Assembly (NCBI GenBank): GCA_037783545.1
Contig: JBBELK010000001.1
Location: 868,001 to 932,000, forward strand
Length of the DNA stretch: 64,000 bases
Reading direction: 5' to 3'
DNA from: Henricia sp. BOLD:AAB3569
Taxonomy: Eukaryota; Echinodermata; Asteroidea; Spinulosida; Echinasteridae
Shown here piece by piece: positions 14,670-62,157 of the stretch (positions are counted from its first letter, which is position 1; every line of letters begins with the position of its first letter). Under the pieces are notes generated by a model. It had not been told where the DNA came from. It was given only the letters and a program-made list of their open reading frames with translations, and ran no database searches. The position numbers and the translations under genes are program-made.

Positions 14670-15799
14670 TTAAGACGGCCCATTCTGAACAGCCCAAGGT
14701 ATGGCCCTTCCAAAAATACCCACCAAACAAGTGGTCATTTCCAGTAAGTAAATGGCCCTGGCTCGTACGTGGCCGGCCGTGGATGCGGTCGATGACAACG
14801 CGACTGGAAATATATTAGAAGTAAACGTATGGAAAATCAGGGCGTACCAACTCTGACAACTCAGATAAGAGCATCAATCATATGTGACCGACAGAGAGAA
14901 AGCACAAGTTCTTGCTGATCAATTTAAATCAGTTTTTACTGATGAGGACCTTGAGAAGATTCCATTTATTCCAGCTAAAATGCCGATTGTTGAGGAAATC
15001 CATGTTACGACTAAGGGGGTTCTAGAGTTACTCAAAGATCTGAACAGTAATAAGGCCAGTGGACCTGACGACATCTGTCCCAGAATTCTCAAGGAAACAT
15101 CTGAGGAGATCGCTCCAATCCTGAGAGACATTTTCCAGCAGTCACTGGATTGTGGCGACCTGCCTAAGGACTGGTTGTTGGCTAACGTCACAGCTTTACA
15201 CAAGAAGGGGGATAAGACTGTCCCGTCTAATTATAGACCTGTCTCATTGACCGGCATTTGCTGCAAATTACTGGAACATATAGTTCATTCTCACATCGGT
15301 CGTCACTTGGAAAAGTTTAATATACTTACACCAAAGCAACATGGTTTCAGGAAACACCATTCCTGTATTACTCAGCTCATCTTAGCTTCGGATGATTGGG
15401 CAAAAGCTGTGGACGCTGGTTACCAGGTGGACATCGCTATATTTGATTTTTCTAAAGCGTTTGACACCGTGCCACATGAACGCCTAAAAGCCAAATTACA
15501 TATGCATGGTATCCAGGGTAAGCTCCTGAATTGGATTATAAATTTCCTGACCCAACGAAAGCAGAGAGTGGTAGTCACTTGGTGCAAATTCTGAATGGGA
15601 CAACGTGGATTCAGGAGTTCCTCAAGGGACCGTCTTGGGCCCCTTGTTGTTTTTATTGTACATCAACGACATTACTGAAGATCTATACTCTGAGATACGC
15701 CTGTTTGCCGATGACTGCATTTTGTATATAGGGTTATCAAAAACTCTTCAGACTGTGACAGACTTCAAGATGATATCAACAGTCTTGATGCTTGGGGGC

Positions 15800-20478: not shown

Positions 20479-20734
20479 AGAAGTTATCTCCTGAGAGTAC
20501 AAGAAAATTTCTTTAATTTCGATATAAACTTAAGACATCTTAACATTAAACTCGACTCTGTAGAAGATGCTGGGTAGACCAATAGATTACATTGTACTTT
20601 TCATAGACTTATGTGTAAATTTAAGACGCAGACAATTGTCCTCCATTTAAGCCAAAACTACAAATATCAAAGAATCCCTACAGTGTGCATGTACCATGTA
20701 CATTGTGGCGCCATGAACATGTATTTGGGACTTC

Positions 20735-21140
20735 ACAGTAAAGGGGGCATTTTGGCAACACAGACCATATTTTCAAGGAAATACCTTTGTCTGGTCTCAA
20801 AATAAACGAAATAAGTTTAAGTTGTTCTGAAGAGATAACTTAGGCCCAAAAATAGTTACAAATAGTGTGACATGCCTTTCTAAAAACCCTGTGTACAAAT
20901 TTCCAATATACGCTCATAACCGGGACGGACACTTGTTACTTGTTACGAGCGTATATTAGAAATATTGTACACAGGGTTTTTAGAAAGACATGTTGTCACA
21001 CTATTTGTAACCCTTTTTTTGGGCCTAAGTTATCTCTTCAGAACAACTGAAACTTATTTCTTTTATTTTGAGACCAGTCAAAGGTATTTTCTGGAAAATA
21101 TGGTTTGGGTTGCCAAAAATGGCCCCCTTTACCGTGAAAA
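20735..21140. mobile_element. Palindromic fold-back element, about 400 bp
   Basis: The arms read AAAGGGGGCATTTTGGCAAC at the left and GCCAAAAATGGCCCCCTTT at the right. They include matching GATAACTTAGGCCC / GGGCCTAAGTTATC and CCCTGTGTACAA / TTGTACACAGGG. The loop is near CGGGACGGACACTTG. Confidence 0.85.
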
Positions 21141-29700: not shown

Positions 29701-32700
29701 AACTTGAAATGAATCAACTTGATATTCCCTACAAGCTTTTCATTATCTGTCCCTTGTTTTTCAGCATCAACCCCAGTGTACACCCCTGCCCCTGTTCCCA
29801 CCATTGCTGCTGTGCACACCTCTTCCCCTGTGCAGTGCCCGGCCCATACTTTCTCCTGTCAGTCAGTATCCACAAACAGACAAGTTTGCCTTCAGGAGTC
29901 GCTGAAATGCAATGGTCACAGCGACTGCGCAGACCAAATGGATGAATACAACTGCAAATGCGTGCAATATCTTAAAGGTGAGACCCGGGGAAGGGGTGCT
30001 TTCAATTCTGCCCCTCATATTGTGAACAATTTAAATAAGGAAAAAAAGCCATTCAACATTATGCTTAGAGCTTAAAAAATTGAAATGTTCCTCTTATTTT
30101 TGTTTATGGTCATTAAACGCATGCACTGTGGTATGTAAAACATTGACGGTACAGCACATCTAAAAATACTTTGACCAACTGTTGGAAGATTAGTTCTTCG
30201 GCATCTTTTGTGCATCTTTTGTGTTGTGCACGGTTAGTGATTACGACTACAATTAGCCAAATCTCAAAATCTTTACGTTTGATGGTTTGTTTTTCACTAA
30301 GGCATACAAGTGTTCAGGGGTGAGATTTTTCCGGATTTCCGGAATTTTTAGGGACCGTCCGGATTTGAGAGTTTTCTGTTTTTCATTGTGAAATCTCTGA
30401 TTTTTATCGGATTTCCGCTTTTTTGTTGTGTGCTTCGCGATCAACATTTTATTTTTTTTAACGAGTGCACCCAATTGATTCAGTAATTTTGCGAGGCAAA
30501 CTTGTGCAAGTCTAGTCGCCATGCAAGTGCCATGACATACATGTAGAGTGCTGCAGAGTGCTGTAGAGTACTGTAGCGCTCGGCAAGCAGATCGACACTG
30601 CAACAGAAGTGAAGCAGACGTGTACAAGTCTAATCCCTAACCAAGCGCCATCTTTGCCTGCATCGTAAACTGGCAATGGTCGTGCGTTGCGTGTGGTGTG
30701 TGCATGTGATGTGTGCACGCACGTGTGCAGTGCGTGGCTGGCACGATGTGGAAAGCAGCGGGCAATAAACTGATTTTACCCTCCGCTTTCGCTTCACCGT
30801 CTTCAACGATCGATGTTGCCTCTAATCTTTTTAATATTTGTACTAGGTAAATATTTAAAACAAAACTGGTTCTTGTGATACCTGGTTAAAATGTTTTTGA
30901 CATTGCAATTTGCACGATGGTGGTGTTTAAAACGATCGCAAAAGTTGAAGTCTTCGTGGTCTCTACGTCTCTCCCCGCCCCCTCCCCAAGGAAGCTACGC
31001 CTCTTCCGATTTGTTTTCTTCTGGAATTTTTTTCTTTCTCAAATCTCACCCCCGAGTGTTGCCATCAGTGTAGACAACAAAACTACACTTGGGATATTTG
31101 TGTAAACACCACAAGTACGCATACTGTTATTAATGTTAAATTCACTAAAAGTCGTTGTTTTGCCCAACCTTGCGCAACCGAGACCAGTGTCACTTACTGA
31201 CCATTTCGCAAAACTGGGTGAGACATTTGTGACAAAGTGGATCTATGCGGACATTGGGGATAAACTGGATCCTAATCAATTTGGGAATCGCAAAGGATTT
31301 TCAACGTCACACTACCTAATCAAATTAATGAACACTCTGTACGCTCATGCAGATTCACGCAACAGCTACAGCAATGTTGTAGTTACTGACTTTAGTAAAG
31401 CCTTTGATTTGATTGATCATAACATAGTCATTGGTAAATTACTTGAGTTAGGCGTGAGACCATCAATTTTGCCCTGGGTGTGCAGCTTCTTAAATAAAAG
31501 ATCCCAGTGTGTTCGTTACAGAAATGTACTATCAGATTTTCAAGTCTTACAGGGAGGTGTACCACAGGGAACAAAATTAGGGCCACTTTGTTTTCTGGCA
31601 CAAATAAATGATGCTATCCAAAAGCCACAACAGGGGATATCAATTTTGAAATATGTAGATGTCACAATAATTGAGAGCGGTCTGGTTAATGTGGACAGCA
31701 GTGTGCAAACCACACTGAATGAATTTAATGACTGGTCTACATGTAACAACATGAAACTCAACCCAGATAAATGTGCACTTATGAATGTCTGTTTCATGAG
31801 AAATCCCATTAGACCACCATCTTTGGAGATTTGTTCACAACAATTGAAAGTGGTCGGTTGTGTTAAACTTTTAGGTATACAAATTAGTCGTGACCTGAAA
31901 TGGGATAATCATGTCTCAGAATTAGTTCGTAAAGCTAATGCTAAACAGTACATGTTGAAGATATTAAAGAAATTTCATCTTTCTACTGCTGACCTTTTGA
32001 CAATCTATAAAGGATATGTGCGGTCTTTATTAGAGTATGCTGTTCCGGTGTGGAATGCTGGGCTTACAACAAAACAGGTTGATAATTTGGAAAGAGTTCA
32101 GAAACGTGCTTTAAGAATAATTTTGGGTTCCACCTATACAACATATCAAGAGGCACTTGATAAAATTGATATATGCACTCTACAACAACGTAGGAAAGAT
32201 ATTTGCATAAAATTTGCTACTGAACTGAGAAAGTCCAGCTTTTTCCAAGACTGGCTGCCTAGACAGCGGGGGGACCAAGTGCAATATAACTTGATAAATA
32301 GTAAACAAATCTCCAGACCAAGGTGTAAGACAAAGAGATATTCTCAGAGTGCAATTCCGTATTTAATTGACCTTTTGAATGAAATGTAAATAAAATTACC
32401 GATTCTTACTCATTTCCTTTAGATTTTAATAAGCAATTTTTAGGGTTGAATTGAATAAGGTTCCAGGGGGAGGGGTGTATTGTATTTTTAAGGTTTTGTC
32501 TTGTTAATGTATTGTATTTGGTAAAGTTTTAGTTCGTTTTTGGTAATGTTTTAGTTCGTTTTGTCCTACTTTAAAAACAAAACAAAAATCTTTTGGGTAT
32601 TATTGACTAATCATTAAGTATTGTGTAAATTGAATTTGTATTGTAAAAATTGACGCAATTTAGCTTGTGGCTACAAGTGCAATTTGAAATAAACCAACAA

Positions 32701-42733: not shown

Positions 42734-43735
42734 TTACATAGTATGGGTTCTCATGTGTCTCTTTAAATTAACACTCCATGTGAATGTCTCATCACAGTGA
42801 CTGCATGCATATGGCCGCTCACCAGTATGAGTTCTCATGTGTCTTTTTAAGTCGCCACACTGTGTGAATGTCTCACAACAGTGGCTGCATGCATACGGTC
42901 GCTCACCGGTATGGGTTCTCATGTGCACTTTCAAATGACTATTCCGTGTGAATGTCTCGCCACAGTTGGTGCATGCATACGGCCGCTCACCAGTATGGAT
43001 TCTCATGTGTGTCTTTAGGCCACCACTCTGTATGAATGTCTTATCACAGTGGCTGCATGCGTATGGCCGCTCACCAGTATGGGTTCTCATGTGTGTCTTT
43101 AAGCTACTACTCTCTGTGAATGTCTTACCACAGTGGCTGCATGCATATTTCCGTTCTCCAGTGTGGGTTCTCATGTGCGTTTTCATATTCCCATTCCGAG
43201 AGAATGTCTCACCGCAGTGGCTGCATACATACGGCCGCTCACCAGTATGGGTTCTCATGTGTGTCTTCAAGCTACAACTCTCCGTGAATGTCTCACCACA
43301 GTTGCTGCATAAATATGGCCGCTCACCAGTATGGGTTCTCATGTGTTTCTTCAAGCTACCACTCTCTGCGAAAGTCTTACAACAGTGATTGCACGTGTAT
43401 GGTCGCTCACCAGTATGTGTTCTCATGTGTATCTTCAAGTGACCACTCCGTGTGAATGTCTCACCACAATGGCTGCATGCATATGGCCGCTCACCAGTAT
43501 GGATTCTCACGTGTATTTTCAAGTTATCACTTCGTGTGAATGTCTTATCACAATGGCTGCATTCATGTGGCCGCTCACCAGTATGGGTTCTCATGTGTCT
43601 CTTCAAGTCACCACTCAGTGTGTACGTCTCACTACAGTGGCTGCATACATATGGCCGCTCATCAGTATAGGTTTTCTTGTCACCATTCTGTGTGAATGTC
43701 TTACCACAGGGGCTGGACAAATGTTGGGTTGTCAT
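42734..43735 (-). CDS. C2H2 zinc-finger protein, 11 fingers (block A)
   Basis: 333 residues. A degenerate N-terminal finger ([20 protein letters not shown]) is followed by 11 intact C2H2 fingers joined by TGERPY linkers at a strict 84-bp period, ending RTHTM. Such arrays bind DNA in the nucleus; the target is unknown. Helix residues at -1, 3 and 6 are varied (for example R-H-I, E-S-K, Q-D-R). No KRAB, SCAN or ZAD domain is present in this frame. Beyond the stop, a further degenerate finger lies in another frame (about 42680-42736), in both blocks, so that lesion predates the duplication. The frame may be complete or the last exon of a longer gene. The ATG at 43735 is the only in-frame candidate near the array start. 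Confidence 0.8.
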
Positions 43736-44295
43736 GTCTGTCAGTTTCTGCTCTTAATATCTCCACACTAAGGTTGTACCGGTATGCACAAGGCTGTTCA
43801 GTGTACAAAGTACATGCATGTACCTCCGAGTCCTCAGTTGTCTGCAAGAATAAGAGGTTGTATGATTTAGAGAAATTAGGAAATAAGAAGGGGTCTTAAA
43901 ATCTAATTTATTCAGACAAGTAGGCACTTTTTGTTTCGATTTCTCAGCTGTAATATAAGAAATATTAATGTAGAATCATCAATCAGCTTTATCGTCATAG
44001 CAGTCGATTTAATTAGTAAAAAAAAAAATTTGCCAAGTTGTATCCAGTGCGGAAATCAAGCCGCCTTAAAGATACACACCGGCTTCGTTGGGCTATTTTG
44101 GGCTCAAAATTGACCCATACAAGATTCTGAACGCCCTTCCGAAATAAACTGAGCATATCCTGAAAAGAAACCACGTAATTTTGCCGTTTTTGAGAAATGA
44201 AAAGAAAAAAACAGAGGTCACGTGACCTTTCGGAACCAGATTCTGGTTCCGAAAAGTCACATGGTCTTGCGAGTTAATAGTGTAGGATATTTGCC

Positions 44296-44840: not shown

Positions 44841-44895
44841 TATTGTCAATGCTGCTACATCACTAAATAATGTAAACAGTAGGCCGGTGTACCTT
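44841..44895. other. Empty target sites for two block-B insertions
   Basis: Here TATTGTCAAT-GCTGCT-ACATCAC (GCTGCT at 44851-44856) is uninterrupted; in block B the 7043-bp element splits it. GGTGTACCTT (44886-44895) is likewise single here and duplicated around the 606-bp element in block B. Confidence 0.95.
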
Positions 44896-52282: not shown

Positions 52283-53988
52283 TTACACAGTATGGGTTCT
52301 CATGTGTCTCTTCAAATTAACACTGCGTGTGAATGTCTCATCACAGTGGCTGCATGCATACGGCCGCTCACCGGTATGTGTTCTCATGTGCACTTTCAAA
52401 ATACTATTCCGTGTGAATGTCTTATCACAGTGGCTGCATGCGTATGGCCGCTCACCAGTATGGGTTCTCATGTGTGTCTTTAAGCTACTACTCTCTGTGT
52501 ATGTCTTACCACAGTGGCTGCATGCATATTTCCGTTCTCCAGTGTGGGTTCTCATGTGCGTTTTCATATTCCCATTCTGAGAGAATGTCTCACCGCAGTG
52601 GCTGCATACATACGGCCGCTCACCAGTATGGGTTCTCATGTGTTTCTTCAAGCTACAACTCTCCGTGAATGTCTCACCACAGTTGCTGCATAAATATGGC
52701 CGCTCACCAGTATGGGTTCTCATGTGCTTCTTCAAGGTACCACTCTCTGCGAAAGTCTTACAACAGTGGTTGCATGTGTATGGTCGCTCACCAGTATGTG
52801 TTCTCATGTGTATCTGTAAGCGGCCACACTGTGTGAATGTCTCACAACAGTGGCTGCATGCATACGGCCGCTCACCGGTATGGGTTCTCATGTGCACTTT
52901 CAAAATACTATTCCGTGTGAATGTCTCGCCACAGTTGGTGCACACATACGGCCGTTCACCAGTATGGGTTCCCATGTGTGTCTTTAGGCCACCACTCTGT
53001 GTGAATGTCTTATCACAGTGGCTGCATGCGTATGGCCGCTCACCAGTATGGGTTCTCATGTGTGTCTTTAAGATACTACTCACTGTGAATGTCTTACCAC
53101 AGTGGCTGCATGCATGCGGCCGCTCACCGGTATGGGTTCTCATGTGCACTTTCAAAATACTATTCCGTGTGAATGTCTCGCCACAGTTGGTGCACACATA
53201 CGGCCGTTCACCAGTATGGGTTCTCATGTGTGTCTTTAGGCCACCACTCTGTGTGAATGTCTTATCACAGTGGCTGCATGCGTATGGCCGCTCACCAGTA
53301 TGGGTTCTCATGTGTGTCTTTAAGATACTACTCTCTGTGAATGTCTTACCACAGTGGCTGCATGCATATTTCCATTCTCCAGTGTGGGTTCTCATGTGCG
53401 TTTTCATATTCCCATTATGAGAGAATGTCTCACCGCAGTGGCTGCATACATACGGCCGCTCACCAGTATGGGTTCTCATGTGTGTCTTCAAGCTACAACT
53501 CTCCGTGAATGTCTCACCACAGTTGCTGCATAAATATGGCTGCTCACCAGTATGGGTTCTCGTGTGTTTCTTCAAGCTACCACTCTCTGCGAAAGTCTTA
53601 CAACAGTCGTTGCATGTGTATGGTCGCTCACCAGTATGTGTTCTCATGTGTATCTTCAAGTGACCACTCAGTAGCTGCATGCATATGCATGGCCGCTCAC
53701 CAGTATGGATTCTCACGTGTACTTTCAAGTTATCACTTCATGTGAATGTCTTATCACAATGGCTGCATTCATGTGGCCGCTTACCAGTATGGGTTCTCAT
53801 GTGTCTCTTCAAGTCACCACTCAGTGTGTACGTCTCACTACAGTGGCTGCATACATACTGTATGGCCGCTCATCAGTATAGGTTTTCTTGTCTCTCTTCA
53901 AGTCACCATTCTGTGTGAATATCTTACCATAGGGGCTGGACAAATGTTGGGTTGTCATGTCTGTGTCAGTTTCTGCTCTTAATATCTC
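52283..53988 (-). pseudogene. C2H2 zinc-finger array, 16 intact fingers, 5' part broken (block B)
   Basis: An open frame of 481 codons (53728-52283) holds 16 intact C2H2 fingers with TGERPY linkers, ending RTHTV. Upstream homology to the block A protein continues to about 53958 but is disrupted. There is a 5-nt insertion near 53858, and a CGA-to-TGA stop in finger 2 (minus-strand context ACATGAAGT, about 53740). A net 15-nt in-frame loss near 53670-53690 removes the zinc ligands of the next finger. Translation from the first Met of the open part would start inside a finger. Internally, a three-finger module is repeated and two fingers are chimeric. The long open frame could still be expressed from another exon, so pseudogene is likely rather than proven. 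Confidence 0.7.
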
Positions 53989-54502
53989 CACAATAAGGTT
54001 GTATCGCAAGGCTGTTCAGTGTACAAAGTACATGTACCTCCGAGTCCTCAGTTGTCTGCAAGAATAGGAGGTTGTATAAATTTAGAGAAATTAGGAAATA
54101 AGAAGGGGTCTTAAAATATAATTTATTCAGACAAGTAGGCACTTTTTGTTTCGATTTCTCAGCTGTAATATAAGAAATATTAATGTAGAATCATCAATCA
54201 GCTTTATCGTCATAGCAATCGATTTAATTAGTAAACAAATTAATTGTCCAAGTTGTATCCAATGCGGAAATCAAGCCGCCTTAAAGGTACACACCGGCTT
54301 CGTTGGGCTATTTTTGGCTCGAAATTGACCCATACAAGATTCTGAACGCCCTTCCGAAATAAACTGAGAAGAAACCACGTAATTTTTCCGTTTTTGAGCA
54401 ATTAAAAAAAAAAAGAGGTCACGTACGTGACCTTTCGGAACCAGATTCTGGTTCCGAAAAGTCACATGGTCTTGCGAGTTAGTATAGTGTAGGATATTTG
54501 CC

Positions 54503-54673
54503 ATGCGTAGCACGGCAAATATCCCGAGTGCACACACGGCCGGGTTGGTTGCTCCGGTGTACGTTCGTGAAGAAAAAAACATGATGCCAACTTCTCCAAA
54601 GAAAACGGAAATTCCTATTCGCTCTTCTGGGGTGTCCGGTGAAATCGTGAGCAGAAAATTGGAGATATCCTGA
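54503..54673 (+). CDS. Conserved 56-codon micro-ORF (block B)
   Basis: Colinear with 44296-44466, same start, stop and length. Same caution: no known family, and it may be non-coding. Confidence 0.2.
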   Translation: MRSTANIPSAHTAGLVAPVYVREEKNMMPTSPKKTEIPIRSSGVSGEIVSRKLEIS

Positions 54674-54750
54674 GTAGGATAGAGAAGAGCGAATCGTTTG
54701 TGACAAAGTCGTGAAGCTCGCGCGTAGTTGCAAGGGCTGGTAAAACGTAT

Positions 54751-54980
54751 TGAGCTCGTGCCAATGACGTCATTTTGGGAGTAAAACAATGCCGTGTCGT
54801 TGTAGAAGCAATGTGCGTGCACGTTGTGTGTGTCCATAGCGCGCGTAACGCGCTATGCTGAGGCTCCCATTGGTGAACTAAACCGCTTTGCGCCCACAGA
54901 CACACAACGCGCACGCACATCGCTTCCACAATAACTCAGCATTATTTGACTCCCAAAATGGTGTTCGAAAGGGGTCAATG
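54751..54980. mobile_element. 230-bp palindromic element, orientation 2 (flipped)
   Basis: Along its whole length this is the reverse complement of 44541-44770 between flanks that are not inverted (CAAGGGCTGGTAAA at the left, AATAGGCCCTAA at the right). The distinct outer ends (TGAGCTCGTGCCAATGACGT and GAAAGGGGTCAATGA) are flipped too. Confidence 0.9.
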
Positions 54981-55102
54981 ACAATAGGCCCTAAGATAAG
55001 ACGACTCTTGACCATTTTTGTTAATTTTGCACTTCTTTAGTGAATTACGGGATATTTTGGTGATCTTTTTTTCACAATGACCATCAAAAAAGTATTGTCA
55101 AT

Positions 55103-55108
55103 GCTGCT
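55103..55108 (+). repeat. Target duplication GCTGCT, left copy
   Basis: GCTGCT precedes AGTAGTGTGGGG. It is repeated at 62152-62157 and single in the empty site at 44851-44856. Confidence 0.92.
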
Positions 55109-55213
55109 AGTAGTGTGGGGGGTCTTGATGAGACAATTTTATGTTAATTTATGCAAATTTATGCATAACCACGCCCCCGACAGAGATCAAAGGTCAAGGG
55201 TCATGGGTCAAAT

Positions 55214-55470
55214 GGACCTGAAACGTTGATGAGACAAATATTCACGAGGTCATTGTGGAAATAAAGAAAAACAAGAGTTGGACCTGAAACGTTGATGAGA
55301 CAAATATTCATGAGGTCATGGGGTGAATAAAGAAAAACAAGAGTTTTGGACCTGAAACGTTGATGAGACAAATATTCACGAGGTCATTGGTGAAATAAAG
55401 AAAAACAAGAGTTTTGGACCTGAAACGTTGATGAGCCAAATATTCATGAGGTCAGTGACGAGCGAACTGA
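55214..55470 (+). repeat. Subterminal 66-68-bp repeats, four units (left arm)
   Basis: Units start at 55214, 55280, 55348 and 55416 with GGACCTGAAACGTTGATGAG and contain ATTCACGAGGTCATTG and AAAGAAAAACAAGAGTT. They are candidate binding sites for the mobilising enzyme (inference). Confidence 0.92.
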
Positions 55471-55533
55471 ATATCTTAATGAGACAGAGTAGCGTGACCC
55501 AGTGGAAATGCGGGTCGTGAACTGAATATCTTA

Positions 55534-55770
55534 ATGAGACAAATAGGAAATATGAACCCGTGTGAAGGTGCACGACCTAAACAAATTAAATCCGTGTATA
55601 TTGGAGTCTGTCAATGTAACCCGTTTTTACAAAATCGCTACATCGATACTCCAAAAGACACGTACCGTGCTTTATTTCACTACACAAACTTGAAATCGCT
55701 ACACCCATACACTGTGTACAAACGTCTTATAGTATTTACGTTTGATCATGTATATGTACTCTTATTATAA
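55534..55770 (+). CDS. Small ORF in left arm, 78 codons
   Basis: Starts MRQIGNMNPCEGARPKQ and contains YIGVCQCNPFLQNRYIDTP. No family is recognised. The right-arm copy differs at one residue (Asn here, Ile there), so at least one nonsynonymous change has been tolerated. It reads inward from the element end. Confidence 0.3.
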   Translation: MRQIGNMNPCEGARPKQIKSVYIGVCQCNPFLQNRYIDTPKDTYRALFHYTNLKSLHPYTVYKRLIVFTFDHVYVLLL

Positions 55771-55861
55771 CTACGTATTTTTTGATGTATTCTTATGTAT
55801 AAGATACAATAATACGAAAGTCGACATTAAGAAGAAGAACAATTAAAATACAGTAAATGAA

Positions 55862-56104
55862 ATGCAGTACAATAAGAACGTTAAAACGTATGATTCACGT
55901 GTCATAACGTGTGAACGTATTTCATGTTGCAAAGTGATATTCCGGACGAGTATTTACAAAGTTATACCTAACTATATTGACGAACAGTCTATTCCACTCA
56001 TTGTACATATACGCGATAATATGGTGCAGTACGTACCAGCATCCTTCCTATATGGTACCAGCCTCTATAACGCGTTGAGACAAGTCATACTGGCGAGGCC
56101 TTGA
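55862..56104 (+). CDS. Small ORF in left arm, 80 codons
   Basis: Starts MQYNKNVKTYDSRVITCERI and ends YNALRQVILARP. Its composition looks protein-like, without low complexity. The translation is identical in the right arm. It reads inward, in the same direction as the 78-codon ORF and convergent with the 227-codon gene. Function unknown. Confidence 0.35.
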   Translation: MQYNKNVKTYDSRVITCERISCCKVIFRTSIYKVIPNYIDEQSIPLIVHIRDNMVQYVPASFLYGTSLYNALRQVILARP

Positions 56105-56179
56105 ACATCCTGTGGGCCGGGCTTTATTGGGGTTGTGAGGGTCGAAACACCATGACGTCATAACGATGAGTCAGCACAA

Positions 56180-57023
56180 ATGGTTGACGTGTTAATTAGT
56201 GCTCGTTCTCCAATGGCGCTAGATTTGAAAGCACTAACCCTGCTATTTCAGCTTCATTTTTGGAGTAGCATTTGTTGGATCCACAGCTCCAATACGTTTA
56301 TTCATTCATTTCAACTCAATGCAGTTTACAACATTTTTCAGAAATGCTGCAGCAACTTAGCACATCGACGCCAAGATGGAATTACATGGTAGTCAAGGTA
56401 CGTTGTAAACAAAATTGTTTTTATTTTACACGTCAATTTGTTTGTTTTCTTTGTATTTTCCATATAAGATGTTTGCCACATTAATACTGTAGGCTCCTAT
56501 CATGTTTATTTGGTGTATCGGGCAGATTATTGCTCCTGTGTGGCCCTACCGAACAAAGAAACCGTCCTTGGAGCGGGAAAATTAAATCGCTGTCAACACC
56601 ATAAATGCCGTAGATTGGTATGATAAAATAAGTTTACTAACATCATGCATAGTTATGTTTGAAGTCTTACATGAGTTTATTTGTACATTTTTTTAAAATA
56701 TCCTTTTTTTCATTTTGAAATTAATAGTTGCAAATACATCAACAAAACAAATTGTGGTTGATTTAATCAATAAATATTTACGATCGATCAAAAGTAAATA
56801 CTCCCGACACACAATATATCAATCTATAGCATAATATAATCCTGAATGGGCTGTTCGGTGTTACCCTTATTGATAATGGATTGCTGGAGGAGTGCCTACC
56901 AGAGGTAACTATTTTTTATAATAATTTCTTTTCTACCAAAGGCACTTGAGTTATGTTATTTTAAAATAACAATTTCTTTCTGAAACTACTAGTTTTTAAT
57001 CACCACCGCGCGTTCCTCATGGT
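56180..57023. other. Left-arm spacer between small ORFs and the 227-aa gene
   Basis: AT-rich. A 70-codon frame (56180-56392) is present in both arms but overlaps another equally long frame, and neither resembles a protein. A possible donor CAAG|GTACGT occurs at 56396. Confidence 0.4.
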
Positions 57024-57707
57024 CTACCTATGCTGGAACAGTCCGTTAAATTCGGCCTGGTGTTTGGGCATTACTCTGTTCAAGGCTTTGTTTACTTCCA
57101 TGCCTTTATTTACTTTTTCTTCGAGCTCTTCCACAATCTCTTGATGAGTATCACTGTCTTTCAGATATAGGTAACTTGACAAGAAATCCTTGTAGTTGTT
57201 GAAAAAGATTCTATCGACTGCCCAGAGGGTCTTCCGTTTGGCTTTTTCCTTGGCTTGATCTTCACCCATACCCTCGCTGACATACTTTTCATATTTTTCA
57301 CTCCACATGTCTCCAGTGGATTCTTTGGCTTCTTCCAACCAGTCTCGATAGGCGACATTGTCTTCCAATTCAGAATCAGACTCATCCGATGATTTGTCAT
57401 CTTTTTCTGTTTCAGATTCCGATTCATCTTCCTCAACATCTTCGTCATCAGCCTGCGTAGAGTCAGTTCCACAGCTTTCTATTTCCGAATCTTCAAATCT
57501 ACGCCTTTTAAAATCGGTTTCATAATTTTCCATGTCCGAATATTCAGATTGAATAGGTTCAATTTCCCGATCATCGTCAACTCTGTCCGTTTGAGATTCA
57601 TCTTCAGCATGTACATTCTCTGCATGCCGCCGTAGGTTATATTTCCGCTCAAAGCTTTTGTCACACTGGTGGCAAGCATGGGGTTTGATTGCAGAAGCAG
57701 CATTCAT
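57024..57707 (-). CDS. C2H2-acidic 227-aa protein, left-arm copy
   Basis: One C2H2 finger at residues 12-34 (CHQCDKSFERKYNLRRHAENV then H) is followed by a Glu/Asp/Ser-rich stretch with a KRRRF basic patch (about 69-73), and then a charged C-terminal domain of about 110 residues (YRDWLEEAKESTGDMWSEKY, KRKTLWAVDRIFFNNYKDFL, VNKALNRVMPKHQAEFNGLF). The finger and basic patch suggest a nuclear, DNA-binding protein (inference). The family is not one I can name. The translation is identical to the right-arm copy. Both genes point outward from the minisatellite core. TATATATA lies at 57762-57769, about 55 bp upstream of the ATG. As the only substantial gene in the element it may serve its replication or mobilisation. 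Confidence 0.75.
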   Translation of the reverse strand: MNAASAIKPHACHQCDKSFERKYNLRRHAENVHAEDESQTDRVDDDREIEPIQSEYSDMENYETDFKRRRFEDSEIESCGTDSTQADDEDVEEDESESETEKDDKSSDESDSELEDNVAYRDWLEEAKESTGDMWSEKYEKYVSEGMGEDQAKEKAKRKTLWAVDRIFFNNYKDFLSSYLYLKDSDTHQEIVEELEEKVNKGMEVNKALNRVMPKHQAEFNGLFQHR

Positions 57708-57761
57708 GTTGAATCTTTGAAGGTCGATCTCCGAATGGCAAAAAGCGGATTAAATCGTTAA

Positions 57762-57769
57762 TATATATA
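57762..57769 (-). promoter_or_regulatory. TATA box of the left-arm 227-aa gene
   Basis: TATATATA on the minus strand, about 55 bp before the ATG. It is mirrored exactly at 59423-59430. Confidence 0.5.
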
Positions 57770-57847
57770 ACTACTCATTATGCTTATACCTCTGGTTTTT
57801 GTGCTCATTATGAACATATATATTCCCTGCTGTCTATAACGTCCGTG

Positions 57848-58689
57848 TTTACTCATTTTCGCTGCTCATTTGATCACTCCGCTGCTCATTTGCTCACTCT
57901 GCTGCTCATTTTGCTCACTTTCGCTGCTCATTTGCTCACTTCGCTGCTCATTTGCTCACTCTGTTGCTAATTTCGCTGCTCATTTGCTCACTTCGCTGCT
58001 CATTTTACTCATTTTGCTCACTTTCGCTGCTCATTTGCTCATTTTGCTCACTTTCGCTGCTCATTTGCTCACTTCGCTGCTCATTTTACTCATTTTGCTC
58101 ACTTCGCTGCTCATTTTACTCATTTTGCTCACTTCGCTGCTCATTTTACTCATTTTGCTCACTTTCGCTGCTCATTTTACTTATTTCGCTGCTCATTTGA
58201 TCACTCCGCTGCTCATTTGCTCACTCTGCTGCTCATTTTGCTCACTTTCGCTGCTCATTTGCTCACTTCGCTGCTCATTTGCTCACTCTGTTGCTAATTT
58301 CGCTGCTCATTTGCTCACTTCGCTGCTCATTTTACTCATTTTGCTCACTTTCGCTGCTCATTTGCTCATTTTGCTCACTTTCGCTGCTCATTTGCTCACT
58401 TCGCTGCTCATTTTACTCATTTTGCTCACTTCGCTGCTCATTTTACTCATTTTGCTCACTTCGCTGCTCATTTTACTCATTTTGCTCACTTTCGCTGCTC
58501 ATTTTACTTATTTCGCTGCTCATTTGCTCACTTCGCTGCTCATTTGCTCACTCTGTTGCTCATTTCGCTGCTCATTTGCTCACTTCGCTGCTCATTTTAC
58601 TCATTTTGCTCACTTTCGCTGCTCATTTGCTCACTCTGTTGCTCATTTCGCTGCTCATTTGCTCACTTCGCTGCTCATTTGATCATTTG
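57848..58689 (+). repeat. Core minisatellite, left half, with 327-bp higher-order repeat
   Basis: Built from GCTGCTCATTTGCTCACTTC and variants with TTTTACTCATTTTGCTCAC inserts. A 327-bp block starting near 57871 is repeated at 58198. Because the array lacks stops in this direction it is open in several frames (LLICSLRCSF-type strings), which is not evidence of protein. Confidence 0.95.
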
Positions 58690-58720
58690 CTAATTTTTAC
58701 ATACAGTTTAAGCTTTTAAG
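58690..58720. other. Centre (loop) of the 7-kb palindrome
   Basis: About 30 bp of unique DNA (AATTTTTACATACAGTTTAA, then GCTTTTAA) between the two oppositely oriented arrays. Confidence 0.85.
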
Positions 58721-59344
58721 CAGCGAAAGTGAGCAAAATGAGTAAAATGAGCAGCGAAGTGAGCAAATGAGCAGCGAAAGTGAGCAAAATGAGCAGCGAA
58801 GTGAGCAAATGAGCAGCGAAAGTGAGCAAAAATGAGTCAAATGAGCAGCGAAGTGAGCAAATGAGCAGCGAAATGAGCAACAGAGTGAGCAAATGAGCAG
58901 CGAAAGTGAGCAAAATGAGTAAAATGAGCAGCGAAGTGAGCAAATGAGCAGCGAAATGAGCAACAGAGTGAGCAAATGAGCAGCGAAGTGAGCAAATGAG
59001 CAGCGAAATGAGTAAAATGAGCAGCGAAAGTGAGCAAAATGAGTAAAATGAGCAGCGAAGTGAGCAAAATGAGTAAAGTGAGCAGCGAAGTGAGCAAAAT
59101 GAGTAAAATGAGCAGCGAAGTGAGCAAATGAGCAGCGAAAGTGAGCAAAATGAGCAAATGAGCAGCGAAAGTGAGCAAAATGAGTAAAATGAGCAGCGAA
59201 GTGAGCAAATGAGCAGCGAAATTAGCAACAGAGTGAGCAAATGAGCAGCGAAGTGAGCAAATGAGCAGCGAAAGTGAGCAAAATGAGCAGCAGAGTGAGC
59301 AAATGAGCAGCGGAGTGATCAAATGAGCAGCGAAAATGAGTAAA
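58721..59344 (-). repeat. Core minisatellite, right half (inverted)
   Basis: The reverse complement of the left-half unit (GAAGTGAGCAAATGAGCAGC). About 220 bp shorter than the left half and lacking the 327-bp duplication, so the two halves have evolved separately in length. Confidence 0.93.
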
Positions 59345-59422
59345 CACGGACGTTATAGACAGCAGGGAATATATATGTTCATAATGAGCACAAAAACCAG
59401 AGGTATAAGCATAATGAGTAGT

Positions 59423-59430
59423 TATATATA
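59423..59430 (+). promoter_or_regulatory. TATA box of the right-arm 227-aa gene
   Basis: TATATATA about 55 bp before the ATG at 59485, mirrored in the left arm. Confidence 0.5.
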
Positions 59431-59484
59431 TTAACGATTTAATCCGCTTTTTGCCATTCGGAGATCGACCTTCAAAGATTCAAC

Positions 59485-60168
59485 ATGAATGCTGCTTCTG
59501 CAATCAAACCCCATGCTTGCCACCAGTGTGACAAAAGCTTTGAGCGGAAATATAACCTACGGCGGCATGCAGAGAATGTACATGCTGAAGATGAATCTCA
59601 AACGGACAGAGTTGACGATGATCGGGAAATTGAACCTATTCAATCTGAATATTCGGACATGGAAAATTATGAAACCGATTTTAAAAGGCGTAGATTTGAA
59701 GATTCGGAAATAGAAAGCTGTGGAACTGACTCTACGCAGGCTGATGACGAAGATGTTGAGGAAGATGAATCGGAATCTGAAACAGAAAAAGATGACAAAT
59801 CATCGGATGAGTCTGATTCTGAATTGGAAGACAATGTCGCCTATCGAGACTGGTTGGAAGAAGCCAAAGAATCCACTGGAGACATGTGGAGTGAAAAATA
59901 TGAAAAGTATGTCAGCGAGGGTATGGGTGAAGATCAAGCCAAGGAAAAAGCCAAACGGAAGACCCTCTGGGCAGTCGATAGAATCTTTTTCAACAACTAC
60001 AAGGATTTCTTGTCAAGTTACCTATATCTGAAAGACAGTGATACTCATCAAGAGATTGTGGAAGAGCTCGAAGAAAAAGTAAATAAAGGCATGGAAGTAA
60101 ACAAAGCCTTGAACAGAGTAATGCCCAAACACCAGGCCGAATTTAACGGACTGTTCCAGCATAGGTAG
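59485..60168 (+). CDS. C2H2-acidic 227-aa protein, right-arm copy
   Basis: Residue-for-residue identical to the left-arm product at 57707-57024, including the single C2H2 finger and the charged C-terminal domain. It is divergent from the left-arm copy across the minisatellite core. Identity of both copies implies recent origin or ongoing gene conversion between arms. Confidence 0.75.
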   Translation: MNAASAIKPHACHQCDKSFERKYNLRRHAENVHAEDESQTDRVDDDREIEPIQSEYSDMENYETDFKRRRFEDSEIESCGTDSTQADDEDVEEDESESETEKDDKSSDESDSELEDNVAYRDWLEEAKESTGDMWSEKYEKYVSEGMGEDQAKEKAKRKTLWAVDRIFFNNYKDFLSSYLYLKDSDTHQEIVEELEEKVNKGMEVNKALNRVMPKHQAEFNGLFQHR

Positions 60169-61087
60169 ACCATGAGGAACGCGCGGTGGTGATTAAAAAC
60201 TAGTAGTTTCAGAAAGAAATTGTTATTTTAAAATAACATAACTCAAGTGCCTTTGGTAGAAAAGAAATTATTATAAAAAATAGTTACCTCTGGTAGGCAC
60301 TCCTCCAGCAATCCATTATCAATAAGGGTAACACCGAACAGCCCATTCAGGATTATATTATGCTATAGATTGATATATTGTGTGTCGGGAGTATTTACTT
60401 TTGATCGATCGTAAATATTTATTGATTAAATCAACCACAATTTGTTTTGTTGATGTATTTGCAACTATTAATTTCAAAATGAAAAAAAGGATATTTTAAA
60501 AAAATGTACAAATAAACTCATGTAAGACTTCAAACATAACTATGCATGATGTTAGTAAACTTATTTTATCATACCAATCTACGGCATTTATGGTGTTGAC
60601 AGCGATTTAATTTTCCCCCTCCAAGGACGGTTTCTTTGTTCGGTAGGGCCACACAGGAGCAATAATCTGCCCGATACACCAAATAAACATGATAGGAGCC
60701 TACAGTATTAATGTGGCAAACATCTTATATGGAAAATACAAAGAAAACAAACAAATTGACGTGTAAAATAAAAAAAAATTTGTTTACAACGTACCTTGAC
60801 TACCATGTAATTCCATCTTGGCGTCGATGTGCTAAGTTGCTGCAGCATTTCTGAAAAATGTTGTAAACTGCATTGAGTTGAAATGAATGAATAAACGTAT
60901 TGGAGCTGTGGATCCAACAAATGCTACTCCAAAAATGAAGCTGAAATAGCAGGGTTAGTGCTTTCAAATCTAGCGCCATTGGAGAACGAGCACTAATTAA
61001 CACGTCAACCATTTGTGCTGACTCATCGTTATGACGTCATGGTGTTTCGACCCTCACAACCCCAATAAAGCCCGGCCCACAGGATGT
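60169..61087. other. Right-arm spacer, mirror of 56105-57023
   Basis: Exact mirror layout of the left arm. A few substitutions are visible (for example AAAAATTTG versus AAAACAATTTTG near 60775, and CCCCCTCC versus CCCGCTCC near 60617). Confidence 0.6.
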
Positions 61088-61330
61088 TCAAGGCCTCGCC
61101 AGTATGACTTGTCTCAACGCGTTATAGAGGCTGGTACCATATAGGAAGGATGCTGGTACGTACTGCACCATATTATCGCGTATATGTACAATGAGTGGAA
61201 TAGACTGTTCGTCAATATAGTTAGGTATAACTTTGTAAATACTCGTCCGGAATATCACTTTGCAACATGAAATACGTTCACACGTTATGACACGTGAATC
61301 ATACGTTTTAACGTTCTTATTGTACTGCAT
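61088..61330 (-). CDS. Small ORF in right arm, 80 codons
   Basis: Same translation as 55862-56104. Function unknown. Confidence 0.35.
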   Translation of the reverse strand: MQYNKNVKTYDSRVITCERISCCKVIFRTSIYKVIPNYIDEQSIPLIVHIRDNMVQYVPASFLYGTSLYNALRQVILARP

Positions 61331-61421
61331 TTCATTTACTGTATTTTAATTGTTCTTATTCTTAATGTCGACTTTCGTATTATTGTATCTTATACATAAG
61401 AATACATCAAAAAATACGTAG

Positions 61422-61658
61422 TTATAATAAGAGTACATATACATGATCAAACGTAAATACTATAAGACGTTTGTACACAGTGTATGGGTGTAGCGATTTC
61501 AAGATTGTGTAGTGAAATAAAGCACGGTACGTGTCTTTTGGAGTATCGATGTAGCGATTTTGTAAAAACGGGTTACATTGACAGACTCCAATATACACGG
61601 ATTTAATTTGTTTAGGTCGTGCACCTTCACACGGGTTCATATTTCCTATTTGTCTCAT
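61422..61658 (-). CDS. Small ORF in right arm, 78 codons
   Basis: Mirror of 55534-55770, with Ile instead of Asn in the HYT(N/I)LKS stretch. Confidence 0.3.
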   Translation of the reverse strand: MRQIGNMNPCEGARPKQIKSVYIGVCQCNPFLQNRYIDTPKDTYRALFHYTILKSLHPYTVYKRLIVFTFDHVYVLLL

Positions 61659-61749
61659 TAAGATATTCAGTTCACGACCCGCATTTCCACTGGGTCACGC
61701 TACTCTGTCTCATTAAGATATTCAGTTCGCTCGTCACTGACCTCATGAA

Positions 61750-62047
61750 TATTTGGCTCATCAACGTTTCAGGTCCAAAACTCTTGTTTTTCTTTATTTC
61801 CCCAATCACCTCGTGAATATTTGTCTCATCAACGTTTCAGGTCCAAAACTCTTGTTTTTCTTTATTTCACCAATGACCTCGTGAATATTTGTCTCATCAA
61901 CGTTTCAGGTCCAAAACTCTTGTTTTTCTTTATTCACCCCATGACCTCATGAATATTTGTCTCATCAACGTTTCAGGTCCAACTCTTGTTTTTCTTTATT
62001 TCCACAATGACCTCGTGAATATTTGTCTCATCAACGTTTCAGGTCCA
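61750..62047 (-). repeat. Subterminal 66-68-bp repeats, five units (right arm)
   Basis: Complement of the left-arm array, with five occurrences of AACGTTTCAGGTCC against four at the left. The extra unit accounts for the 68-bp difference in arm length. Confidence 0.9.
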
Positions 62048-62151
62048 TTTGACCCATGACCCTTGACCTTTGATCTCTGTCGGGGGCGTGGTTATGCATA
62101 AATTTGCATAAATTAACATAAAATTGTCTCATCAAGACCCCCCACACTACT

Positions 62152-62157
62152 GCTGCT
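62152..62157 (+). repeat. Target duplication GCTGCT, right copy
   Basis: Follows CCCCACACTACT. Together with the left copy and the empty site it fixes the insertion boundaries. Confidence 0.92.

Follow-up and report, generated by a model that had tools for sequence, protein, structure and literature searches.

A palindromic element with Polinton-type ends and a duplicated zinc-finger gene in the sea star Henricia, probably a non-autonomous Polinton satellite

Replication of Polintons is thought to be linear, protein-primed and virus-like, a view mostly inferred from their genes. Same-end deletion derivatives arise in protein-primed strand-displacement replication, as in the end duplications of adenovirus and the derivatives of yeast linear plasmids. 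Transpovirons are linear satellites accompanying giant viruses and virophages. Foldback elements (FB/TU and Mutator-type) have long inverted repeats with internal tandem repeats, the target duplications of FB and TU being 8-9 bp, and the replication of AAV is not protein-primed. For AAV DNA, a rolling-hairpin mode of replication is the general assumption (PMC11575299), and Mavericks are described by (AG)3//(CT)3 or (AGT)2//(ACT)2 ends and perfect 6-bp target site duplications (TSDs) (PMC8097293). No palindromic Polinton derivative appeared in the titles and abstract beginnings of the Polinton/Maverick and protein-primed literature searched, a scope confined to papers and including a word search within PMC6431247, PMC8097293, PMC12220804 and PMC11071308. 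Similarly, literature searches on protein-primed and adenovirus parallels found no paper on palindromic derivatives.

Here, we analysed a 64,000-nucleotide stretch of the genome of Henricia sp. BOLD:AAB3569 (contig JBBELK010000001.1, positions 868,001 to 932,000; hereafter the window). It contains a near-perfect palindrome of 7043 bp at 55109-62151, with AGTAGT...ACTACT ends and the TSD GCTGCT on the left (55103-55108) and right (62152-62157). In self-alignment, the reverse complement of the element aligned to it across all 7043 bp, and the start, end, length, end motifs and duplication were as claimed in the preliminary description. The element and its own reverse complement have 20890 12-mers in common, a count that the tandem repeats inflate; 20 mononucleotide shuffles averaged 9.6 and reached 22 at most. 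A chance origin of the palindrome was rejected on this comparison. The (AGT)2//(ACT)2 ends, the 6-bp TSD, the inverted termini and the occurrence of the ends on gene-bearing relatives in the same genome are shared with Polintons/Mavericks (polintoviruses), and both end motif and TSD agree with the published Maverick description. It differs from them in being palindromic over its whole length and in carrying two copies of a zinc-finger gene of its own.

From the left, a terminal module on the forward strand (55109-55454) includes 3.6 copies of a 68-bp subterminal repeat (55213-55454), and the zinc-finger core, starting at arm position 947 and running inward, occupies 56055-57858. Within the core lies the left copy of the gene, encoding 227 aa on the reverse strand (57024-57707). 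A central tandem-repeat tract (57848-58688) is followed by its inverted counterpart (58719-59334), then by the right gene copy on the forward strand (59485-60168), whose protein is identical to that of the left copy, and by the right terminal module on the reverse strand (61738-62151), with 4.6 copies of the 68-bp repeat. Comparison of the two arms outside the tandem-repeat core gave 5 substitutions over 2745 aligned bases, plus a difference of one 68-bp repeat unit. Eleven Polinton protein queries gave no match in the element (tblastn, E<=1e-4); polymerase, integrase, ATPase, protease and capsid-type genes were not found in this copy with these queries, upholding the earlier claim that it lacks the Polinton core genes. 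The only family match in the element was the zinc-finger gene, and no transposase was found among its genes.

An empty paralogous site, TATTGTCAATGCTGCTACATCAC, is present at 44841-44863 with a single GCTGCT at 44851-44856, as had been proposed. The left flank of the element aligned to block A of the window over approximately 2.2 kb (87% identity), and the right flank over 45 bp only (95.6% identity), diverging beyond, which leaves the empty site with a short right side. The flank of the element also belongs to dispersed repeats. Of 5560 candidate loci, 40 were scored for a near-identical allele lacking the insertion, and none qualified; the best other locus reached 84%. Given that long-read data are known to contain inverted chimeras, a one-armed element might have been turned palindromic by chimeric reads. 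That origin is highly improbable, for both flanks match the empty site with the same TSD on each side, the arms are not exact copies of each other, and palindromes occur at many loci with different TSDs. Furthermore, two palindromes were each recovered on two contigs (C998/C351 and C109/C1202), in opposite orientation and with the same TSD and 10-12 bp of flank, a pattern that two haplotypes or a recent duplication would produce. An assembly artefact was rejected on the repeated loci and their differing TSDs.

The preliminary description had proposed, as a test of the Polinton link, a search for full-length relatives encoding protein-primed DNA polymerase B (pPolB) and integrase between the same ends. 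A genome-wide search with the ends and the 227-aa protein bore this out in part. The ends are shared with C679:39021-47487, an internally deleted Polinton of the same genome, over 352 terminal columns at 92.3% identity on both sides (92% for the left terminal module). C679 has TIRs of 813 bp that are 100% identical, encodes a whole rve integrase with chromodomain and retains the C-terminal part of pPolB only (PF03175, 9e-23). Its ATPase candidate fell just under the cut-off (Pox_A32, 21.5 bits), and further genes, which we take to be capsid-type, are named from gene order only. No intact autonomous element with the exact end type of 55109-62151 was found in the whole-genome search of ends. Other subfamilies of palindromes share ends with gene-bearing Polintons such as C70 and C1265, and the suggested Polinton link was borne out by these ends as well as by those of C679. 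C245, C364 and the C1265 group are called Polintons here because matches to integrase and capsid-type proteins lie between their paired ends; PF03175 was absent from the matches reported for them, with 91 of 158 candidates scored. The 446-aa protein labelled capsid-type had no Pfam match, and its PDB match was weak and to a designed protein only.

The shared ends bear on the possibility that the element is a classical foldback (FB of Drosophila, TU of sea urchin, or Mutator-type) mobilised by an unrelated transposase. Its very long inverted repeats and internal tandem repeats are typical of foldbacks. On the other hand, its 6-bp TSD contrasts with the 8-9 bp duplications of FB and TU, its (AGT)2//(ACT)2 ends are other than theirs, the same ends flank Polinton genes, and the element itself yielded no transposase. 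We regard such an origin as very unlikely, and a foldback transposon was rejected on TSD length and ends.

The zinc-finger gene allowed the family to be traced through the genome. Among the 95 matches listed, there were 37 close gene pairs, of which 35 were head-to-head, none tail-to-tail and 2 same-strand. The core is 86-95% identical to 17 other loci, some of which share all of it and others only the inner portion, with homology starting at six different arm positions. The element belongs to a family of mirror-image elements in which a single conserved zinc-finger core is combined with various Polinton-type ends. In each of the 15 zinc-finger palindromes listed, the two end sequences are mirror images, while end types vary by subfamily. 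Four end types were distinguished, each matching a different Polinton or Polinton-derived element, mostly at 88-94%. L014-type palindromes have 500-bp ends in common with Polinton C70 (94% and 80%), L019-type ends match C364 (93%) and one end of C245 (93%), and L022-type ends match C1265, C141, C599, C154 and C717 (88-94%). Pieces of Polinton genes are retained in some sister palindromes.

Exact TSDs were found at 15 of 17 zinc-finger element loci (exceptions, C457 and C43), counting haplotype-like pairs as one and reading C121 with a 3-base shift in its AGT run; wherever a zinc-finger locus has a TSD, its length is 6 bp. The same held for both zinc-finger-free palindromes (C364 and C56) and for all five Polintons or Polinton remnants (C679, C70, C1265, C599 and C861), each of which has an exact TSD. 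C706 (20.8 kb) and C972 (28.9 kb) also have exact TSDs. No one-armed ancestor of the zinc-finger palindromes was found; the candidates checked were C752, without Polinton match or end motif, and C43, a palindrome that lacks a TSD and whose one gene sits in the loop.

The predicted 227-aa protein comprises a C2H2 finger (residues 10-33), an acidic linker modelled at low confidence (36-112) and a helical C-terminal part (approximately 117-225). Stop-free reading frames were kept in 47 of 53 full-length copies, and the gene shows purifying selection, with a median dN/dS of 0.32 across 89 between-group pairs. Fold searches with the predicted model (mean pLDDT 66.5) gave no match at E<=0.001, and in a solved-structure profile search the best stretches (best 60 of 130) lay within the finger or, at most, the linker. 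NCBIfam gave no match. In a search of viral contigs for relatives of the protein, 26 stretches matched a pattern and none was confirmed by tblastn.

How such arms may have come to be mirrored is best seen in palindromes that lack the zinc finger. C364 has arms of 5811 bp that are 99.8% identical and the TSD GATGTG. It equals the unfolded Polinton C245 over 1000 bp, and collinearity of the two extends through a 54-nt loop as far as CGAACTGT. On the other side of the loop stands ACAGTTCG, whose reverse complement is CGAACTGT, giving an 8-nt inverted match exactly at the turn of C364. This is the sole 8-nt inverted pair with a loop of 3-60 in the 351-bp piece. C56 has a 3-nt inverted match with a 166-nt loop at its junction; a match of this kind is expected by chance at about 1/64 junctions. 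Fold-back junctions can be read in these zinc-finger-free palindromes, C364 giving the clearer trace (8 nt) and C56 the weaker. Both resemble the defective or satellite snapback genomes of AAV, which are subgenomic snapback DNA keeping one genome end (PMC8235507). The palindromes here differ from AAV snapback genomes in being integrated with TSDs and carrying a conserved gene of their own. Unlike the episomal palindromic derivatives of adenovirus and yeast linear plasmids, they form a genomic family.

A zinc-finger palindrome might instead have formed once, long ago, its arms being kept identical by chromosomal gene conversion rather than repeated fold-back copying. Inverted repeats are able to convert each other, and arm identity over the core was 98.7-100% in all 17 palindromes compared. 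We consider a single ancient origin rather unlikely, since palindromes of other content exist with fold-back junctions and the ends are mirrored in the listed palindromes despite their subfamily-specific types. In addition, arm differences of approximately 0.7% are kept in the two haplotype-like pairs, so conversion after insertion is incomplete.

A further argument against it comes from C151:1941298-1953289, a single element with the TSD GACATG. It contains a zinc-finger palindrome with arms of 3.7 kb (99.8% identical), joined on one side only to Polinton minor-capsid-type, basic, capsid-type and protease genes. The element is asymmetric, with no more than 89% identity between its two ends. 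C151 looks like the intermediate expected of an end swap. It also raises the possibility that the zinc-finger gene belongs to the ordinary gene set of an unsampled Polinton lineage, the palindromes being by-products (defective genomes) and not a selected satellite family. Behind the zinc-finger gene of C151 come remains of capsid-type and protease genes in the same orientation, and whole capsid-type genes lie within the same TSD-bounded element. C364 and C56 are palindromes formed from Polinton-type sequence, and homologues occur on contigs of up to 16.5 kb. Nevertheless, searching the retrieved C151 element turned up no piece of an integrase or polymerase, none of 21 full-length Polinton integrase loci had a zinc-finger match within 1 Mb among the matches listed (compared by eye), and the gene remains intact, with purifying selection acting on it, across palindromes of several end types. 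An origin as a by-product is unlikely on this evidence.

We consider it likely, with good confidence, that 55109-62151 is a non-autonomous Polinton satellite whose copying and integration would depend on Polintons acting in trans, and that the palindromes formed, and were probably rebuilt, by fold-back copying. Against this reading, no intact helper with the exact end type was found in the whole-genome search, an arm was nearer to another locus than to its partner arm in 5 of the 17 palindromes compared, and C457 and C43 lack a TSD. What suggests mobilisation in trans is the shared ends and the near-identical arms. The pPolB and integrase of resident Polintons would use the two identical ends as origins of replication and as sites of integration. 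A strand begun at one end would fold back at a short inverted match and be copied back to the same end, giving a palindrome. An end swap would probably occur on one arm, and the next round of fold-back copying would transfer it to the other. The zinc-finger protein, as a selected gene product, may bind the DNA of the satellite or its helper, or may regulate replication or packaging.

A stronger reading, offered tentatively, is that the zinc-finger palindromes are a true polintovirus satellite in an animal. Their linear genomes of approximately 5-9 kb might be replicated, packaged and integrated by several helper Polintons, with helpers switched via end swaps, the second half rebuilt by fold-back after each swap, and a dedicated zinc-finger protein recruiting or controlling the helper. 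By analogy, such an element would resemble transpovirons in being a small linear satellite-type element beside a virus-like helper, and would differ in its palindromic architecture. An integrated palindrome whose fold-back junction can be compared with a near-identical unfolded Polinton may be the trace of a single-stranded replication intermediate, and such junctions could make the replication mode of Polintons testable from genome sequence. If the satellite reading is true, a gene-bearing satellite wearing the ends of several Polinton lineages would be a third party in the Polinton-host system, comparable to the satellites of viruses.

The palindromic element at 55109-62151 is 7043 bp long, has the termini AGTAGTGTGGGG...CCCCACACTACT, and is flanked on both sides by GCTGCT, with an empty site at 44841-44863, in agreement with the preliminary description. 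Its full length aligns to its own reverse complement. Outside the tandem-repeat core, 2745 bases could be aligned between the two arms; they contain 5 substitutions, and the arms are further distinguished there by one 68-bp repeat unit. Both arms carry a copy of one gene encoding a 227-aa C2H2 zinc-finger protein (PF00096, 24.1 bits versus a cut-off of 25.2), and the two copies lie head to head with inverted tandem repeats between them. The insertion flank (54300-55108) itself belongs to dispersed repeats present on many contigs at ~90% identity, and two long reading frames for C2H2 zinc-finger arrays (42734-43753 and 52283-53737) occur in the duplicated blocks of the empty and filled sites. 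The window also contains a separate self-inverted repeat of ~407 bp (20732-21138, 87% self-complementary) and, judged from translations only, reverse-transcriptase-like reading frames at 14869-15594 and 31106-32389.

The ends and target site duplications (TSDs) tie this element to Polintons. Its 349-bp end also borders, on both sides and at 92% identity, an element on another contig (C679:39021-47487) with identical inverted repeats of 813 bp and the TSD GGAGCA. This element codes for an rve integrase that carries a chromodomain, for an ATPase (Pox_A32, 21.5 bits, under the cut-off of 22.8), and for a protein-primed polymerase of which the C-terminal portion is present (PF03175, 81 bits), and further genes follow the gene order of the C70 Polinton. 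The protease of C70 matches adenovirus endoprotease weakly, at 16.7 bits, a score below the cut-off. The names "major capsid" and "minor capsid" used for Polinton genes here are presumed from gene order. Full-length, same-ended relatives carrying both protein-primed polymerase B and integrase had been proposed as support for a Polinton link; the genome-wide search recovered both genes in C679, the polymerase being partial. Because C679 is internally deleted, it is a putative helper only.

In the published account of Mavericks (PMC8097293), (AGT)2//(ACT)2 ends and 6-bp TSDs are given as criteria. We located the AGTAGT/ACTACT motif by script and then compared the six bases outside it. They agreed at 15 of the 17 loci of zinc-finger elements and differed at C457 and C43; each haplotype-like pair counts once, C121 is read with a shift of 3 bases in an AGT run, and C1960 is left out. 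Equality was also found in two palindromes devoid of the zinc finger (C364 and C56), in all five Polintons or remnants (C679, C70, C1265, C599, and C861, the last with one extra AGT at one end), and in the elements of C706 and C972. The latter (L058/L059), 28.9 kb long and bounded by an exact TSD, contains a gag-like reading frame and inverted pieces of a PC4 gene.

The zinc-finger protein had at least 152 matches in the assembly (740.7 Mb, 2104 contigs; 150 of 238 candidates scored). Pair counts rest on 95 of these matches, with neighbours taken within 6 kb and haplotype-like duplicates included. Among these, 35 of 37 neighbouring pairs were head to head (-,+), none was tail to tail, and 2 were on the same strand. 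Of the 53 full-length copies among the 95, 47 sat in a head-to-head pair, and 47 had no stop; 21 of the 95 matches were unpaired, some of them full-length. Nineteen loci were looked at (the window, L010-L026, and L051), and in 17 of them a 750-bp piece of the core could be compared between the arms. Arm-to-arm identity was 98.7-100% in these 17 palindromes, and in 12 neither arm was as similar to any other locus as to its partner. The remaining five (L011; L014 and L016; L020 and L021) have near-identical copies at other places, the last four forming two haplotype-like pairs. L023 (C1960:21500-31450) shows nested or tandem palindromes: inside the larger one lies another inverted pair of 1.8 kb that includes parts of zinc-finger genes. 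L057 (C43) is palindromic as well, with a damaged end and a single zinc-finger gene located in the loop. Thirty relatives (48-76% identity) lie on public contigs of 0.6-16.5 kb.

The gene is under selection: between core groups of our own definition, median dN/dS was 0.32 (range 0.20-0.58, 89 pairs) once the frameshifted L024 and one member of every haplotype-like pair had been removed, and 0.35 over 142 pairs with L024 counted in. By region, the ratio of medians was 0.25 (finger), 0.43 (linker), and 0.24 (C-terminal part). The protein is probably functional.

The zinc-finger core is common to other palindromes at 86-95%, their homology with the element at 55109-62151 starting at arm position 947, 968, 1025, 1661, 1863, or 1906. 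Besides the end type of that element, three more were searched. The L014-type end is similar to C70 (94% left, 80% right), the L019-type end to C364 at both ends and to C245 at one end (93%), and the L022-type end to C1265, C141, C599, C154, and C717 (88-94%). Full-length integrases and capsid-type matches occur in these five and in C245, in none of which a match to PF03175 was reported (91 of 158 candidates scored). The printed left and right ends are mirror images in the 15 zinc-finger palindromes compared. Mirrored Polinton gene pieces remain between end and core of some palindromes, namely a PC4-domain gene (PF02229) in L015, L017, and L018, which shares 63% identity with its C70 counterpart, and protease parts in L022, L023, and L024. 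The terminal-proximal Polinton gene at L027:311-1345, which these three PC4-bearing palindromes have retained in mirrored form, has a PC4 (p15) domain at 29.1 bits (cut-off 25), and its product is possibly a single-strand DNA binder. Among the matches listed, compared by eye, none of 21 full-length Polinton integrase loci had a zinc-finger match within 1 Mb.

Two palindromes without the zinc finger show junctions of the fold-back type, one strong and one weak. C364:88011-99684 (TSD GATGTG), which consists of Polinton sequence, has arms of 5811 bp, 99.8% identical, with mirrored capsid-type, protease, and integrase-end genes. Over 1000 bp, comprising the inner arm and some of the loop, it is the same as the unfolded C245 (100% after rounding). 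C364 tracks C245 across the 54-nt loop as far as CGAACTGT, from where the inverted copy begins; across the loop stands ACAGTTCG, its reverse complement, and the 351-bp piece has no other 8-nt inverted pair separated by a loop of 3-60. Priming by a 3' end that had folded back would leave such a junction. At C56 (TSD GTGTTT, 166-nt loop) the match at the turn is 3 nt, weak evidence by itself. No one-armed parent of the zinc-finger palindromes was found, so their own fold-back origin is one that we only infer.

One asymmetric element, C151:1941298-1953289, is bounded by AGTAGT/ACTACT with the TSD GACATG. It contains a zinc-finger palindrome with arms of 3709 bp, 99.8% identical (1941421-1945127 and 1945974-1949680), each zinc finger being adjoined by capsid-type and protease pieces. 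To the right of this palindrome, minor-capsid-type, basic, whole capsid-type, and protease genes fill the remainder of the element. Its two ends are 89% identical, and neither integrase nor polymerase pieces turned up in it. A palindrome joined one-sidedly to a Polinton end would look like this before the other arm was rewritten. The element makes gene conversion, in any case an unlikely explanation of what keeps arms identical, slightly less likely. Because it holds zinc-finger and Polinton genes together, it also serves the rival view that the zinc finger is an ordinary gene of a Polinton lineage and the palindromes its by-products.

As a kind, a non-autonomous derivative of a recognised transposon class is not new. 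No palindromic Polinton derivative was described in the titles and abstract starts of the papers listed on Polintons/Mavericks and parallel systems, with subscription papers and Repbase outside this scope, and the palindromic architecture, the conserved gene of its own, and the different helper ends are undescribed as far as could be checked. Adenovirus uses a repeat for jump-back priming, which the terminal AGT repeat here resembles. We propose that a Polinton polymerase would initiate at a protein-primed end, and that the new strand would then fold back and copy itself as far as the same end. Arms may later be rebuilt, a core being joined on one arm to the end of another Polinton and the second arm matched to it through a further fold-back copy. 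The outcome of folding back would be a palindrome with two good ends, open to replication and integration in trans, presumably by Polintons.
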